The notes below the pieces were generated by a model that saw nothing but the letters and a program-made list of their open reading frames with translations, was not told where the DNA came from and did no database searches. The position numbers and the translations under genes were made by a program. DNA of 32,059 bases from a virus: positions 1 through 32,059 of IMG/VR virus record IMGVR_UViG_3300048919_000147. One strand, given 5' to 3'. This document shows, one piece after another, positions 3,985 to 29,123 of the stretch (positions within the stretch are counted from its first letter, which is position 1; every line of letters begins with the position of its first letter).

Positions 3985-4722
3985 TCAAAGACGTGAAAGT
4001 AGCTTGTTCTCCAGTATTTTGATGTGTCTGGGCGGTATGGATATCTCATTTCCGGCTTTCATAACTACATATTTATTAAAACGGTCAATTTTACTTATGT
4101 AGTTTATGTTTATTAAATGGGACCTACCGCATAGAAAGAATGATGGATTGCTTTGGCTAACCAATTCTTTAAGTGAAATTGCCGCGGTACAGAAACCAGC
4201 TTTTGTGTAAATTGCAACCTTGCGCTTTTCGTCGGGAATGGCACGTATGTAATAAATTTCATCTGCCTTCATACTGAATGTATCTCCCAATTGCAAGCTG
4301 CTGTCCTCTTCTTCTATTTGAGAATGAGTTGAATCGTGCAACTCTTTCAAACACTCTTTTACCCTTATGGGCATAGACAGGGAACCGCCCTTCAAGAGGT
4401 AGTCTTTTACGCCAAGTTTCATCTTGTATGTTTCTAAGGTGAAGTTGTAAGCTGTAATCATGATAATCCACGCATTTGCATTAGCACTTCTGATTTTTGC
4501 GGCAAGGTCAAGTCCGCTCATTTCGCCCACCCCAAAATCAACATCTAATAAGTACAAGCACACTGTTCCTGTATTCATCTTTTCCAATATTTCTGTTGGG
4601 TATTTTGTAGCACACGCGAGTTTAATACTATGCAAGTTTTCTTTAGTTATAATTTCTAATACAATATTAGTTAAAGTCTTTAGTTGCTGTGCATCATCTT
4701 CACATATGTATACTGGTATCAT
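3985..4722 (-). CDS. LytTR-family response regulator (AgrA/ComE-like), orphan
   Basis: The start is the ATG at 4722, preceded by AGGAGGGGCATA; an earlier in-frame start would use up this site. The protein is 245 aa. Residues 1-120 form a receiver domain with the acidic cluster CEDD (Glu8-Asp10), phospho-acceptor Asp60 in YLLDVDFG, a Thr in MITAYN, and Lys in DYLLKGG. Residues 135-245 form a LytTR DNA-binding domain (FSMKADEIYYIRA, FFLCGRSHLININYISKID, ISIPPRHIKILE). Such proteins control peptide quorum sensing, bacteriocin and virulence genes. No histidine kinase or signal-peptide gene is adjacent. It follows the 64-aa gene at 4752-4946 by 29 bases and is probably in one operon with it. Confidence 0.88.
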   Translation of the reverse strand: MIPVYICEDDAQQLKTLTNIVLEIITKENLHSIKLACATKYPTEILEKMNTGTVCLYLLDVDFGVGEMSGLDLAAKIRSANANAWIIMITAYNFTLETYKMKLGVKDYLLKGGSLSMPIRVKECLKELHDSTHSQIEEEDSSLQLGDTFSMKADEIYYIRAIPDEKRKVAIYTKAGFCTAAISLKELVSQSNPSFFLCGRSHLININYISKIDRFNKYVVMKAGNEISIPPRHIKILENKLLSRL

Positions 4723-4751
4723 TATGCCCCTCCTGGTTGTCACATTATCGG

Positions 4752-4946: not shown

Positions 4947-5053
4947 TTGTAATTCCCCCATGGTTTTTATAGTGTTTGTATATACTAACCCATAATTATT
5001 CTACCACTATTTGGTAGTTCCCTTTACTGGTAATATTTGCCATTTATAGCGTA

Positions 5054-5082
5054 TTTACAATTAGAACGTATGTTTGTATAAT
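5054..5082 (+). promoter_or_regulatory. Sigma-A promoter of the 104-aa gene
   Basis: TTTACA (5054-5059) and TATAAT (5077-5082) are separated by 17 bases. Transcription would start near 5089, almost at the AGGAGGTGG ribosome site, giving a very short leader. Confidence 0.7.
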
Positions 5083-5101
5083 AAGTCCAGGAGGTGGTAA
5101 G

Positions 5102-5416
5102 ATGCCGTCATTTGGTATAGGTATAAATCCATACAAAAGAAGCAACGGCAGCGTCCGGGGGAATACATACCCTATTGCTTGCATGGCTTGGTATGCTCCA
5201 GGACGCGCCCCTGTGCCGCTGTTATTTAAGTTTGAGGGCCACGATGGGGTATTGCAGACTGTAGATGGGGTAAAGGTCATAAGTACCGCCAGTAAGAGCT
5301 ATGACGGCTCTGTAGTGTATGAATATAACTGTGAGGCTGTGATAGGCGGTATCCGGTATGGGTTTAAACTTATCTTCTATATAATGGAATGCAGGTGGAC
5401 CATGGTTTTAGGATAA
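5102..5416 (+). CDS. Hypothetical protein (104 aa), monocistronic
   Basis: The ATG at 5102 follows AGGAGGTGGTAAG. The protein begins MPSFGIGINPYKRSNGSVRG and has a Gly- and aromatic-rich, beta-like composition (YPIACMAWYAPGRAPVPLLF, VYEYNCEAVIGGIRYGFKL), ending ECRWTMVLG. It has three cysteines in no zinc-binding spacing, no signal peptide and no clear membrane helix. The gene has its own sigma-A promoter and an intrinsic terminator, so it is an independent unit facing away from the response-regulator operon. I do not recognise the family. Confidence 0.65.
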   Translation: MPSFGIGINPYKRSNGSVRGNTYPIACMAWYAPGRAPVPLLFKFEGHDGVLQTVDGVKVISTASKSYDGSVVYEYNCEAVIGGIRYGFKLIFYIMECRWTMVLG

Positions 5417-7836: not shown

Positions 7837-7977
7837 TCACTCTTTTTCGTATTTTTCACCTGTAATCAACTTATACTCTTCTGCTGTGATCCATTTCCCC
7901 ACGGCATTCCATACCATAGCTTTGGTCCAATACCCTAAATCATAATATCTTTTTACCAGCTCATATCGTTCACTCAT
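7837..7977 (-). CDS. xkdX: XkdX-family small phage protein (46 aa)
   Basis: The sequence MSERYELVKRYYDLGYWT followed by KAMVWNAVGKWITAEEY and ITGEKY is the XkdX pattern found after tail-fibre genes in PBSX-like and clostridial phages. The role is unknown but its place before holin and lysin is conserved. The ATG at 7977 follows GGAGGTTTTTGCATT and overlaps the stop of the upstream gene as ATGA, implying coupled translation. Its stop overlaps the alternative GTG of the holin. Confidence 0.85.
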   Translation of the reverse strand: MSERYELVKRYYDLGYWTKAMVWNAVGKWITAEEYKLITGEKYEKE

Positions 7978-8357
7978 AATGCAAAAACCTCCATTCCTAC
8001 GCCTGTCATCATTGAAAGATACATAACTTGTGCCTTGGTCTTTTCAACTTCTTCTCGGGTGTCTGGCGTTCTAAATGTAGCCGTAATCACAGTGGCCTTA
8101 ACATTTGAACCAATATCATAATTGGACTGCTGCGTCAGTATTCCTGCGAAAGCAAGATCAGTTCGGCTCCAGTCGATTTCTCCCGAGGTATTAATCTGGC
8201 GAATAACATCGTTTTTCTGCAAATTCAGCTCAATGTTATCAAACTGAGCAACGCCCTTTTGAAAAGTGATCGTACCGCCCTCATTTGTGAGCTTTACACC
8301 ATCAGCGACGAGGTCAAAAACCTGATCTCCGAATTGAATCTTTTCCATATCACTCAT
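7974..8357 (-). CDS. Hypothetical phage protein between fibre and XkdX genes (127 aa)
   Basis: The start at 8357 follows GGAAAGGAATCTA; a further in-frame Met at 8348 (MEKIQFGDQVF) is a weaker choice. The protein begins MSDMEKIQFGDQVFDLVADG and has a beta-rich N-terminal half (KLTNEGGTITFQKGVAQFDN). Its second half contains TREEVEKTKAQVMYLSMMTG, a predicted helix. This type of protein is common next to XkdX at the end of tail-fibre modules; it may be a small virion or fibre-associated component. It ends in an ATGA overlap with xkdX. Immediately upstream lies a long hairpin and the silent plus-strand fibre cassette, so its transcript passes through the invertible region. Confidence 0.7.
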   Translation of the reverse strand: MSDMEKIQFGDQVFDLVADGVKLTNEGGTITFQKGVAQFDNIELNLQKNDVIRQINTSGEIDWSRTDLAFAGILTQQSNYDIGSNVKATVITATFRTPDTREEVEKTKAQVMYLSMMTGVGMEVFAL

Positions 8358-8371
8358 TAGATTCCTTTCCG

Positions 8372-8405
8372 CCCATAAGGGCATAAAAATAAGCCCCGGT
8401 ATGGG
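8372..8405. other. Hairpin at the outer edge of the invertible fibre region
   Basis: CCCATA-A-GGGC pairs with GCCC-CGG-TATGGG around an ATAAAAATAA loop. It lies just upstream of the 127-aa gene's ribosome site and about 30 bases outside the 13-bp inverted repeat. It could be a weak terminator, a recombinase-related structure, or chance. Confidence 0.35.
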
Positions 8406-8433
8406 ACTGGTTTACAAGTTTATTTAGTTCTGA

Positions 8434-8446
8434 AAATAGCAATTTA
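8434..8446. repeat. Inverted repeat, left copy, of the fibre switch
   Basis: AAATAGCAATTTA on the plus strand; its exact inverted copy is at 9043-9055. In both copies the frame reads AAT AGC AAT TTA (Asn-Ser-Asn-Leu). Confidence 0.75.
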
Positions 8447-8716
8447 AGTAACAAAGTCGATGCGAGTGCTCTTAACAGCAAACTCTCCAATGATAATCCA
8501 AATCACCTAACCAGTGTCGGCTTTGATGCTACCAAGGCTGTATTAAAGGCGAGTATTGATGGTGCAATATATCCAATACCGATTAATGTATTTGGAGATA
8601 ATCGCATGGTAAAAGGCCTTGGGATATATTATGATACCGTAAAAGGCAAAAATGTTATGCAGGTCAACTGGTGGGCCGATGGCGTGGATCACACCAACTA
8701 TATAAGTTTTGATTAA
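8434..8716 (+). other. Silent alternative 3' cassette of the tail-fibre gene (opposite strand)
   Basis: The plus strand is open here in the frame that ends at TAA 8714-8716. It encodes NSNLSNKVDASALNSKLSND, then HLTSVGFDATKAVL, PINVFGDNRMVKGLGIYYD, and ends DGVDHTNYISFD. The text is fibre-like and coding in character, but no start codon or ribosome site precedes it. Its first residues match residues 82-105 of the fibre gene on the minus strand (NSNLALKANASDLTNLAQK), and the DNA starts with the 13-mer AAATAGCAATTTA, which is present in inverted orientation in that gene. Exchange of the ends at this repeat would give an in-frame fibre of 85 + 89 residues. This is therefore a non-expressed alternative tip. 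Confidence 0.7.
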
Positions 8717-8727
8717 ATGATCATTTA
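8714..8727. repeat. Palindrome joining the two convergent fibre ends
   Basis: TAAATGATCATTTA is a perfect 14-bp palindrome. Its first three bases are the stop codon of the plus-strand cassette, and the stop codon of the minus-strand fibre gene begins at the next base. Confidence 0.6.
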
Positions 8728-9297
8728 TTATAATTGTTTTATCGCTGCGGTATGATAAGTGCTGCTTGTAATAGCTAATTTTATACCGTTTGTTAATGTC
8801 ACACTAAAATTGTTATTGCTTACTAATGTAAATATTGTTCCAGTGTTACTAATCCCTCCCCCAGCAACAACGATATAAGCGGCTATATTGCTTGTGTTAT
8901 TATTTCCGACAGTAGAACAGATAACTAAATATGCCGAAAGTGCAATTAAATCATAACTATTAGTACCTGCATCGCCAGCATATCCATTAATCAATGTTTT
9001 TTGCGCGAGGTTAGTTAAATCACTGGCATTTGCTTTCAGCGCTAAATTGCTATTTATGTTAGTAACAGTAGTACTTAAAGTGCCCAAAGTCTGGTTGACT
9101 GCGTATAACGCTGCCATGCTGGCTATCTTATCCGGATCATTTACAATCTGGCTTACAACAGCTGCGGCGATTGCCTTGATTGCATCGTTGTTATCTTTTA
9201 TGCCTGTTTCAATCTCATTTAAGATTTCTGCTTCCAGGTCAGGGCTTGAATTGTCAACCCATGTATGCTTGTTGTATGTATTTACAGGTATTGCCAT
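8728..9297 (-). CDS. Tail-fibre / receptor-binding protein, expressed form (189 aa)
   Basis: The start ATG follows AGGAGGATTAC. The N-terminus (MAIPVNTYNKHTWVDNSSPD, then LEAEILNEIETGIKDNNDAI) is the attachment domain common to the last fibre genes of clostridial and streptococcal siphophages. A helical shaft follows (residues 35-100, heptad-like TLSTTVTNINSNLALKAN). Residues 105-189 are a Gly/Asn/Thr-rich tip (GYAGDAGTNSYDLIAL, YIVVAGGGISNTGTIF). The boundary at residues 82-85 (NSNL) carries the 13-bp inverted repeat that pairs with the silent cassette on the other strand, so the tip is probably exchangeable. The gene sits between a structural fibre gene and the 127-aa gene in the late operon. 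Confidence 0.82.
   Translation of the reverse strand: MAIPVNTYNKHTWVDNSSPDLEAEILNEIETGIKDNNDAIKAIAAAVVSQIVNDPDKIASMAALYAVNQTLGTLSTTVTNINSNLALKANASDLTNLAQKTLINGYAGDAGTNSYDLIALSAYLVICSTVGNNNTSNIAAYIVVAGGGISNTGTIFTLVSNNNFSVTLTNGIKLAITSSTYHTAAIKQL
9043..9055. repeat. Inverted repeat, right copy, of the fibre switch
   Basis: TAAATTGCTATTT is the reverse complement of 8434-8446 and lies inside the expressed fibre gene at codons 82-85. The 596 bases between the two copies contain both tips. Confidence 0.75.
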
Positions 9298-9306
9298 GTA
9301 ATCCTC

Positions 9307-10179
9307 CTATTCACATTGTACTAAATAGATATTGCTGGTTATTGGGCCACCCTCGAAGAAGTGTAAGTACAAATACGCATTGCCTGTATACGCAGATACG
9401 TTAAGAAGATAATCTCCTCCGGTTCCGCTGGCATTCATAGTTGCCACCTGCGTTCCAAGTGCTGGGTTCTTGACTAACGACGAAGAGTTTGTATCGTCCC
9501 AAATGTAATTTGTTACATGATTACGGTAAAGGGAAATACCATTATTTACAGACTGGCTATTCTCAATTCGTACTCTTATCTGGTTTAGCCCGGTCAAGTC
9601 TAATGCAACATCAAATACCACTGTTACAGACCTTGCTCCGCTCGACCGGTATATTCTTATCCGGTCACGCTCCAGTGATGTTGTTCCAAGCAGGTCATTA
9701 AGCTGGTACCTGAACGATGTAATAGTTTGAATACCGTTGAAAGTGCCGTATTTATAAAGTGTTTTTGGGTCTGTAATTACATATCCCTCAAACGTTCCTG
9801 TAACTCCGCCAACGGTAACGCCCTTTTTAATGACCGATGGGATCAGATTCTTGGTAGTTTTAATTGTGATATTGCCAGTCATATACTTGCCTGCGGTTGG
9901 TATGGTTATCATTTGCGATCCAGGGCCTATACTCTGTGCTCCCATCGTAGGAATCGACTGCGATACTGTTCCACCTGCGTAATAACCAGCCTGTAAGGTT
10001 TGTGAGCCGTTTACGGGCAATGTCAATGCCGGGCTACCTCTTAGGGGTATTGTACCTTGCTGATTTTCGTCACTTCCTGAGCCGATAAAGATTTCAGAAG
10101 TCAGCACGTCATCTGGACCTGCGGTTAAATCAGTGGTATCTACCGCTCCACCAACTCTATGTATTGGTACTCTTGCCAT
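9307..10179 (-). CDS. Phage tail-fibre / baseplate protein with Ig-like module (290 aa)
   Basis: The ATG at 10179 is chosen because AAGGAGGAAACC precedes it; the frame is open ten codons further without a ribosome site. The N-terminal 130 residues (MARVPIHRVGGAVDTTDLTA, FIGSGSDENQQGTIP, GTVSQSIPTMGAQSIGPGSQ, AGKYMTGNITIK, VGGVTGTFEGYV) are a module repeated in the next gene upstream. Residues 140-290 form a beta-rich domain (FDVALDLTGLNQIRVRIENS, YLLNVSAYTGNAYLYLHFFE), like carbohydrate-binding or trimeric fibre tips. It is the middle of three fibre-type genes. Confidence 0.78.
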   Translation of the reverse strand: MARVPIHRVGGAVDTTDLTAGPDDVLTSEIFIGSGSDENQQGTIPLRGSPALTLPVNGSQTLQAGYYAGGTVSQSIPTMGAQSIGPGSQMITIPTAGKYMTGNITIKTTKNLIPSVIKKGVTVGGVTGTFEGYVITDPKTLYKYGTFNGIQTITSFRYQLNDLLGTTSLERDRIRIYRSSGARSVTVVFDVALDLTGLNQIRVRIENSQSVNNGISLYRNHVTNYIWDDTNSSSLVKNPALGTQVATMNASGTGGDYLLNVSAYTGNAYLYLHFFEGGPITSNIYLVQCE

Positions 10180-10189
10180 GGTTTCCTCC

Positions 10190-10612
10190 TTAATCCACGA
10201 AGCCCTCAAAGGTTCCAGTTACTTCTCCGGGAGCGTCCCCGACCTTCTGGCCCAGTTTTATGTTATAGTCGTAAAGGTTATCTACCGCATTTACAATTAT
10301 ATCTCCAATCATGTACTTACCTGCGCATTCTATGATAATTTCTCCTACTCCAGGGGTGACCGTCTGGCCTGCCATGGTTGGGATTGATTGGCTTATTGTG
10401 TCATCTCCATTGTGTATCCCGGCAGGAATGCTGTAAGTGCCATTTGCTGGTAAGCTATAGCTGACTTGTGCGTGTTCTGGTACGGTTCCGGTTCTGATAT
10501 CGTCACTTCCTGAGCCGATAAAAGTCTTGCCTGCTCTAACCTTTGACTCCGTAGCTGTTAAGTTCGTGTAGTCAACGCCATTGCCTTTAAAAAATAATGG
10601 TAAGTGTGCCAA
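10190..10612 (-). CDS. Tail-fibre module protein (140 aa), paralogue of the next gene's N-terminus
   Basis: The start is TTG at 10612, placed two bases after the previous stop; AAGGGGGTGTAATC supplies the ribosome site. The protein (MAHLPLFFKGNGVDYTNLTA, TFIGSGSDDIRTGTVP, DDTISQSIPTM, CAGKYMIGDIIVNA, GEVTGTFEGFVD) is nearly co-linear with the first 130 residues of the 290-aa fibre gene downstream, differing in detail. The two arose by duplication of one structural module. The final TFEGFVD matches TFEGYVI, the point where the longer protein continues into its own C-terminal domain. A shaft or collar role is likely. Confidence 0.75.
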   Translation of the reverse strand: MAHLPLFFKGNGVDYTNLTATESKVRAGKTFIGSGSDDIRTGTVPEHAQVSYSLPANGTYSIPAGIHNGDDTISQSIPTMAGQTVTPGVGEIIIECAGKYMIGDIIVNAVDNLYDYNIKLGQKVGDAPGEVTGTFEGFVD

Positions 10613-28222: not shown

Positions 28223-28226
28223 CTAG

Positions 28227-28299
28227 TCGTAACACTCAGATTCGAACTGAGAACCAACCGGATATAAGCCGGGTGCTCTAACCGTTGAGCTATGTTACG
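28227..28299 (-). tRNA. tRNA-Ile (anticodon UAU)
   Basis: A full cloverleaf reads on the minus strand: acceptor CGTAACA / TGTTACG (7 perfect pairs), TA at positions 8-9, D stem GCTC / GAGC, anticodon stem CCGG / CCGG with loop CTTATAT, and T arm CTCAG-TTCGAAT-CTGAG. The loop gives anticodon UAU, reading the AUA isoleucine codon that most bacteria decode with a lysidine-modified CAU tRNA. CCA is not encoded. It is phage-borne, upstream of the terminase genes, and would help translate AUA-rich phage mRNA. Confidence 0.92.
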
Positions 28300-28462: not shown

Positions 28463-28876
28463 TTATTTAATCCCTTTTTCTTTCAAATAAGCATCACGGA
28501 TACATTTTCTCAGGTAGTCATGCTTTCCTCCGTATCTTGTCTTGGCTGCTATCTTCACCCATTCCATTCCGTCTATGTATCTCATTCGGAAGATACAACG
28601 TGTCTGTCCGTCCTCGATAGCTTCAATCCATTCCTTGACTGCCTTTACTGCCTCTTTTTTGAAGTCTAAGGCCTTCTTTCTTTTTTCATACTCGGGCCAA
28701 TCGAAACCTATAACACTTTGCGGTTTTGCATATCCTTCCCGGTAATCATAGATTGTACTGTTGTTTATTCCTGAGTCCGAGGTTTGCATATCCTTTAGTT
28801 CGTATTCTAGGATTGGTATTTCCATTAGAGTCTTTTTATAGTCTTTTAACAGCTTCTTGGTAATCTTAATTTCCAA
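28463..28876 (-). CDS. Phage late-gene regulator, sigma-region-4-like (137 aa)
   Basis: The TTG at 28876 has GGAGG seven bases upstream; the GTG at 28882 is too close to that site. The protein has an N-terminal coiled part (MEIKITKKLLKDYKKTLMEI), a middle with KALDFKKEAVKAVKEWIEAI and a C-terminal helix-turn-helix. The last part (CIFRMRYIDGMEWVKIAAKT, then GGKHDYLRKCIRDAYLKEKG) resembles the region 4 fold of sigma factors found in ArpU/RinA-type phage regulators. These turn on packaging and structural genes, which lie immediately downstream. The tandem repeats at 28429-28457 may be its target. The role is inferred from fold and place. Confidence 0.72.
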   Translation of the reverse strand: MEIKITKKLLKDYKKTLMEIPILEYELKDMQTSDSGINNSTIYDYREGYAKPQSVIGFDWPEYEKRKKALDFKKEAVKAVKEWIEAIEDGQTRCIFRMRYIDGMEWVKIAAKTRYGGKHDYLRKCIRDAYLKEKGIK

Positions 28877-29123
28877 ACTCACGCCTCCCTGCTTCCAGTA
28901 ATTTTAATCTTTCCGCGTCCCACTTTTTCCATAAGGGTTCGCTCTTGCTGATCACTTCGTCTACTGTCTCAAACAAGTATCTACCTCTGTACAGTATCCC
29001 AGTGTCTGCGCAAGCCGAAACTGTTTCTTGTCTGATGCCCCATAGCTCGGTTATTTCCTTGGAGGTAAACTCTCCTTGCTCTTCTCCTCCGTCATACACC
29101 GCGAATATCTTTCTTGCTGCCAT
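28866..29123 (-). CDS. Small phage DNA-binding-like protein (85 aa)
   Basis: The ATG at 29123 follows AGGAGGGATAGCG. The sequence (MAARKIFAVYDGGEEQGEFT, SKEITELWGIRQETVSACAD, TGILYRGRYLFETVDEV) contains a compact helix-turn-helix candidate at residues 20-42 (TSKEITELWGIRQETVSACA), like excisionase or MerR-type heads. It overlaps the start of the late regulator by 11 bases and is likely co-translated with it. Function unknown; DNA binding is inference. Confidence 0.68.
   Translation of the reverse strand: MAARKIFAVYDGGEEQGEFTSKEITELWGIRQETVSACADTGILYRGRYLFETVDEVISKSEPLWKKWDAERLKLLEAGRREFGN

Follow-up and report, generated by a model that had tools for sequence, protein, structure and literature searches.

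The locus described here is very probably a site-specific tip-switching cassette in the tail fibre of a temperate phage, flipping itself being inferred in the absence of reads. It lies in the window, by which is meant the whole stretch of DNA that was analysed, an IMG/VR record of 32,059 bases that is an incomplete contig and whose minus-strand genes encode the terminase small and large subunits, portal, head proteins, tape measure, tail proteins, holin and endolysin. The original prediction of a fibre tip with a silent alternative 3' end on the opposite strand was confirmed as an observation; its interpretation is supported and can be enlarged, on sequence evidence, to a widespread tip-switching system, with an invertible fibre tip as the best reading of the locus. 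The features concerned are the following.

7974-8384, minus strand: conserved gene beside the outer site (alignment A2), the bait for recruiting relatives
8410-8433, plus strand: conserved outer flank gtttacaagtttatttagttctga / ACAAGTTTATTTAGTTCTG beside the outer site, common to phages with unrelated fibres
8434-8445, plus strand: putative outer recombination site AAATAGCAATTT (13-mer 8434-8446)
8434-9055, no strand: whole putative invertible segment, 622 bp including both sites (in-frame product; swap in G001)
8447-8716, plus strand: silent tip B, 89 aa and a stop, without a start codon of its own (stop 14 codons upstream, no Met)
8714-8727, no strand: junction palindrome TAAATGATCATTTA between two convergent stop codons, unique in the window
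8728-9042, minus strand: active tip A, 104 aa and a stop (reading frame; protein relative in G037)
8728-9297, minus strand: last tail-fibre gene, an ORF of 189 aa
9043-9297, minus strand: constant N-terminal part of that gene, 85 aa (92% identical to residues 1-85 of the G001 fibre)
9044-9055, minus strand: putative inner recombination site AAATAGCAATTT, read N-S-N-L in the fibre gene (13-mer 9043-9055)
9307-10209, minus strand: upstream tail protein gene, with a homologue labelled 'tail protein' in Dulem virus 35
28463-28882, minus strand: late transcription regulator, ArpU-like

The 13-mer AAATAGCAATTTA had been reported as an exact inverted pair at 8434-8446 (plus) and 9043-9055 (minus), and these coordinates hold, as do the convergent frames and stops: the fibre ORF is faced by a plus-strand frame whose open stretch covers 8393 to 8713, which ends in the TAA at 8714-8716 and in which no start codon precedes the repeat. 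Both tips were also correctly said to end at stops beside the shared palindrome. Inversion of 8434-9055 in silico gave a single in-frame protein of 85 + 89 = 174 aa, reproducing the proposed joining of the alternative 89-residue tip to the 85-residue N-terminus, and a constant N-terminus that acquires either of two convergent C-termini in frame by inversion was in this sense obtained. The further claim that the 20 codons past the repeat are related survives only weakly, as about 4/16 residues agree (K..AS.L) in a motif that is common in these fibres; the extended repeat amounts to 35 nt at 71% identity. Tip A has 71% protein identity over 107 aa to the active tip of contig G037. Neither window tip found a match among 50,697 phage records, and comparison of the tips of relatives with solved structures gave nothing meaningful. 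The window fibre protein itself has a weak match to the minor tail family phrog_2012 (E 0.0038), while homologous loci match tail-fibre PHROGs (phrog_5073 and others), BppU_N, collagen and phage fibre repeats; on such matches the identity as a tail fibre is firm for the relatives but weak for the window protein.

Several other features of these contigs were noted. The outer flank ACAAGTTTATTTAGTTCTG (8410-8433) may be an accessory binding site or a signal of the downstream gene; used as a pattern against genome contigs, the conserved flank gave no match. A tRNA-Val gene of G001 has its 3' end ~90 bp from a third exact AAATAGCAATTT (G001:C1:26794-26805; L026:7295), which is near a likely prophage attachment end and could be due to chance or be an arm site. 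Past the lysis genes there is a LytTR-type response regulator in both the window (3985-4743) and G001 (G001:25287-26171; L026), a shared occurrence which suggests that it may be cargo of the phage instead of flanking host DNA. In the window, the interval from the late regulator/terminase region to the end of the contig contains a tRNA-Ile with anticodon TAT (28226-28299) and, in the same region, two DNA methyltransferases, N6/N4 and C5 (29844-30749 and 30958-31860). At its left end (12-803) is an Fe/Mn superoxide dismutase with an acidic proline-rich tail, which may belong to host flank or phage.

The repeat on its own is no evidence for inversion, because an exact 13-bp inverted pair at a distance of 250-2200 bp was present in 113/200 dinucleotide shuffles of the window, the real window having six such pairs at that spacing. 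Significance of the lone 13-bp repeat was rejected as being at chance level in these shuffles, and the case therefore rests on comparison with relatives. Its 12-mer, AAATAGCAATTT, is found in the window only at these two places (0.02 expected). The codons at the site are always AAT AGC AAT TT(A/G/T), out of ~192 possible synonymous spellings of N-S-N-L/F. Invariance of the 12-mer in the table of arms is partly by construction, as the arms were located with that pattern, and this partial circularity means that the argument has to be based on contigs that were found through other proteins. Conservation at the sites is limited to one 12-bp block, the flanking side being variable, and variants were seen in G047 (AAATAGTGATTT), G024 (GAATAGTGATTT) and Dulem virus 35 (TAAATAGTGAT). 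Among 299 family genomes the 13-mer was not commoner than its reversed control, a point in favour of the main reading. The pattern ACATAAATAGCAATTTA was discarded, its occurrences in viral contigs being mostly unrelated single matches (L006, L008, L009, L010), and a search of a plasmid collection gave no match. Within the library searched, the 12-mer was found in no paper, nor was there any description of the system.

Comparison with relatives was far more informative than the repeat. The exact 12-mer was observed in dozens of divergent viral contigs and in two host genomes, in most instances as an inverted pair that encloses two convergent tips. In one viral contig, G001, the first 85 fibre residues are 92% identical and another tip lies between the same two 12-mers. 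DNA homology between the two stops 12 bases into the inner site and returns at the outer site, and since the gap is bounded by both 12-mers the whole cassette has been replaced at two sites. G002 and G003 have quite different fibre N-termini, yet the same sites and the same outer flank. Recruitment with the neighbouring protein (7974-8384) as bait, and not with the site, for which one mismatch was allowed, gave 17 new viral contigs, some only 44-50% identical in that protein; the 12-mer was present without mismatch in 14, mostly as inverted pairs. The same bait applied to isolate and MAG genomes revealed a site pair in a Hungatella MAG and a site at the contig edge in Clostridium sp. HBUAS56010. 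The convergent two-tip inverted layout recurs in ~40 pairs, and AAATGATCATTT or a close variant stands between the convergent stops in most of the 42 inverted pairs tabulated. That palindrome provides stops on both strands, has an AAAT-4-ATTT frame like that of the site and contains GATC.

Breakpoints fall at the site with great regularity. Homology between fibre N-termini ends +11 to +30 nt from the site start in 50/51 related phage pairs and that between outer flanks at the site, or up to +31, in 94/95, with the tips beyond it usually unrelated between phages. Swapped tips among relatives, named beforehand as a check on the prediction, are thus observed, and the swaps are exactly at the 12-mer. 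It could be argued that the repeat arose by chance within the N-S-N-L coiled-coil motif of tail fibres, and a lone 13-bp inverted pair is indeed to be expected by chance, but the invariance at DNA level and the breakpoints at the site across many phages refute this, and it retains practically no credibility.

The same tip can be found active in one phage and silent in another. The active 120-aa tip of G004 recurs as a silent tip in G046 (97.5% protein identity; 98% DNA identity over 410 bp from the site), another is silent in G043 and active in G055 (97.8% in DNA over the first 313 bp, 60% in protein over the full length), and a third is silent in G017 and active in G036, a contig that is cut. 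Other pairs have one tip in common and not the other: G009 and G077 have the same active tip and different silent tips, while the silent tip is common and the active one is not in G009 and G015, and likewise in G007 and G106. For silent tips dN/dS was 0.07-0.29 in most pairs; one silent pair reached 0.63 and one silent-active pair 0.64. Silent tips thus appear to be mostly under purifying selection, which would be unexpected were they never expressed. Frame disruption of the silent stretch in relatives, which would have counted against the prediction, was not seen; the silent frames are mostly intact and conserved. The silent tip has been lost from some cassettes (G001, G003, G020), which tells against the main reading, as do the two dN/dS values above 0.6.

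Additional cassettes were found away from the fibre gene. The nine sites of G015 include one active pair and three silent pairs spread over ~37 kb, in none of which either arm carries a fibre N-terminus, and G017 and G020 have one silent pair each. In G002 a third tip is followed by the junction palindrome and then by a fourth, convergent tip that runs off the contig. In all, three to nine sites were counted in G002, G015, G017, G020, G035, G040, G067 and G069. A small conserved gene (MPSFGIG...; window 5018-5413, L002:7649-7960, L027:372-743) adjoins the third and fourth silent tips in G002; there is no cassette at that place in the window or G001. Two silent arms of G035 (L191:51 and L191:2016) are followed by an identical 61 bp of tip (100%), a pattern that would fit the copying of a piece of tip from one cassette to another. 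The silent tip of Dulem virus 35 (PP511522, L011:1633-2241) is annotated as a hypothetical protein in GenBank, and convergent annotations beside fibre genes may hide further switches.

The original prediction inferred a recombinase that is not encoded in the window, and neither a serine nor a tyrosine type was found in the 32 kb. The tyrosine recombinases of the related contigs are ordinary integrases and a separate XerA/XerD-like group of ~340 aa; the catalytic R-K-H-R-H-Y is invariant in alignment A3, and NCBIfam XerA/XerD models match below the equivalog cut-off. When viral contigs were recruited by the XerA/XerD-like group alone and then scanned for AAATAGYRATTT, the site was present in 31/72 records, nearly always as exact AAATAGCAATTT; most formed inverted pairs with a spacing of ~0.5-1.6 kb, against scattered single matches for the reversed control. 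Addition of G002 brought the tree to 73 contigs, 32 of them with the site, and all 32 site-bearing rows fell in one supported clade of 46, against 0/27 rows outside it (Fisher 5e-10 for all contigs; 9e-7 for pairs on contigs of at least 25 kb). These p-values are optimistic, as near-copies were included and the clade was picked after the tree had been viewed. Seven clade members on contigs of at least 25 kb were without the common site, one with a variant, and this counts against the main reading. When inverted repeats accompanied by convergent frames were sought generically, the clade members without the common site yielded no pair of it, only the variant in G024, and two unlike matches turned up outside the clade.

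In 24/43 cases tested the recombinase gene lies just upstream of the ArpU-like regulator and far from the fibre, from which it can be 17-29 kb distant in relatives. Direct adjacency to a pair was observed in G366, a genome from the family sample drawn around the Hungatella MAG, in which the recombinase gene ends ~130 bp from the invertible pair, whose arms have CAGATAAATAGCAATTTAAC in common. This recombinase falls outside the main clade, a point against the main reading, and the assignment of all site-linked recombinases to a single clade was given up: it is true for the 73 viral contigs and not for G366. A related tyrosine recombinase also adjoins a convergent two-tip cassette in G064, G070 and G072 (L154:1716-3496, L160:509-1319, L161:1631-3496), where the cassette forms the end of a long collagen-like tail protein and is bounded by a 12-bp inverted repeat, C[AT]CAAATTTAAC; this locus is probably a sister invertible system.

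An explanation without dedicated inversion would be that the 12-mer is mere short homology, at which tips are exchanged by general (RecA/Red-type) recombination during co-infection. Tips clearly are exchanged between phages, and some phage-sized contigs with the site have no recombinase. Twelve bases are, however, short for general recombination, the site is exact in silent cassettes where no upstream protein constrains it, its link to one recombinase family is strong and extends to adjacency in G366, and the inverted two-tip layout would have no role; we regard this explanation as improbable. A serine-invertase G segment of the Mu/P1 type has even less to recommend it. The layout is the same, with a constant N-terminus, two convergent tips and inverted sites, but no resolvase-family gene is present in the window, the related contigs hold only large serine proteins (frames of 469-530 aa, in three of them) and the association is with tyrosine recombinases. 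A serine invertase was accordingly rejected, the small resolvase-family enzyme having been found neither in the window nor in related contigs. The parallel with Mu and P1 drawn at the outset stands for function and fails for the enzyme, which would be tyrosine (XerA/XerD-like) and not serine.

The whereabouts of the enzyme in the window phage is less easily settled. The clade recombinase was not found in the window, G001, the near-phage-sized G003, G007, G010, G019 or the Hungatella MAG with the pair, and the position directly upstream of the ArpU-like gene, occupied in many relatives, lacks it in the window. All these records may be incomplete, and truncation, supply in trans or loss can account for the missing gene. 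A XerD-like tyrosine recombinase is in other words tied to the locus in relatives and absent from the window contig. It is conceivable that the system is real and that the window copy is locked or relies on the recombinase of a co-resident prophage or of the host, a view that does not exclude the main reading. It draws on the lack of any serine or tyrosine recombinase in 32 kb and of the clade enzyme in several phage-sized contigs with site pairs; it is weakened by the incompleteness of the window, by the distance of 17-29 kb that can separate gene and fibre, and by the intact open frames of both window tips. We consider it unlikely, if too substantial to be dismissed. On the preferred reading, a functional tip-switching cassette, it is inferred that the recombinase family cuts this site and that the window segment flips, with enzyme from the missing part of the genome or in trans.

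Gin, Cin and Min are serine recombinases with longer dyad sites, which sets the systems of Mu, P1 and p15B apart from the present one, where neither was found. Functionally they are comparable systems. In the Mu G segment (Gin), the P1 C segment (Cin) and p15B (Min) the C-terminus of a tail fibre is switched by inversion of a segment that carries the alternative ends (PMC6109161). The nearest known system is the Rin shufflon of the dnaJ2 prophages of Bifidobacterium breve and B. longum, the inversions of which have been shown by reads (PMC6109161). Like the present locus it involves a receptor-binding protein with a constant N-terminus and alternative C-termini (~95-100 residues in Rin), a XerD-like armless tyrosine recombinase apart from the integrase, and short asymmetric sites, of 11 bp in Rin (PMC6109161). 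Its rix sites (TTCCCTAACCC) are absent from the window. In Rin the Rv genes lie next to the recombinase in a single contiguous array whose sites are both direct and inverted (PMC6109161), whereas here the cassettes take the form of two-tip units with inverted AAATAGCAATTT at their ends and a palindrome at the junction, additional cassettes are scattered, and the recombinase is usually remote, often near ArpU/terminase. A recombinase adjoining a contiguous tip array was not found, adjacency being confined to G366 and, with another repeat, G064/G070/G072; nor does the window, with two sites, have the three or more of a shufflon.

The pilV shufflon of R64 (IncI1) resembles the present system in its tyrosine recombinase (Rci) and in having one conserved and one variable side to the site, and undergoes multiple inversions. 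The sfx sites of R64/Rci have a conserved core and right arm and a variable left arm (PMC11852207). It differs in acting on a plasmid pilus adhesin, at a different site, in contiguous segments with common sites. A second inverted locus in tRNA-Met bifidophages shows a ~500-bp inversion of a gene 3' end with no adjacent recombinase, and reliance on a recombinase in trans has been suggested (PMC6109161); it has an 8-bp repeat, CAGGGTTA, unlike that found here, and is known from only two phages. Its own site, palindromic two-tip cassette, dispersed silent cassettes and usually remote recombinase set the present system apart from Rin and R64.

The switch can be pictured as follows. As the frames read, the fibre would be translated through the site into tip A. 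A XerA/XerD-like tyrosine recombinase, inferred from association and adjacency, would pair the inverted sites and exchange strands, and the 622-bp segment would then invert, fusing tip B in frame and silencing tip A; the event is inferred and its product known in silico, while swaps between phages indicate that such in-frame tip products exist in nature. New tips may also come from remote two-tip cassettes; the simplest route would be a series of inversions between inverted sites, in which the intervening DNA would first be turned round and then restored. By analogy, tip choice is inferred to set host range, and replacement of tip A by tip B should change host binding.

A wider hypothesis, offered tentatively and on balance doubtful, is that AAATAGCAATTT acts as a common adaptor, trans-acting tyrosine recombinases letting unrelated fibres draw by exchange and inversion from a shared, dispersed pool of two-tip cassettes in their own and co-resident prophages, so that phages without the enzyme would switch too. 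The dispersed silent cassettes and the phages that have the site and no recombinase raise the question of whether tips, and the enzyme that moves them, are shared among phages. Little is known of the way in which phages of gut-type Clostridia change hosts. A 12-bp site together with a recombinase family makes tip switching countable in any long-read metagenome, and the two yield a list of alternative receptor-binding tips for each phage and a new set of short-site invertases.
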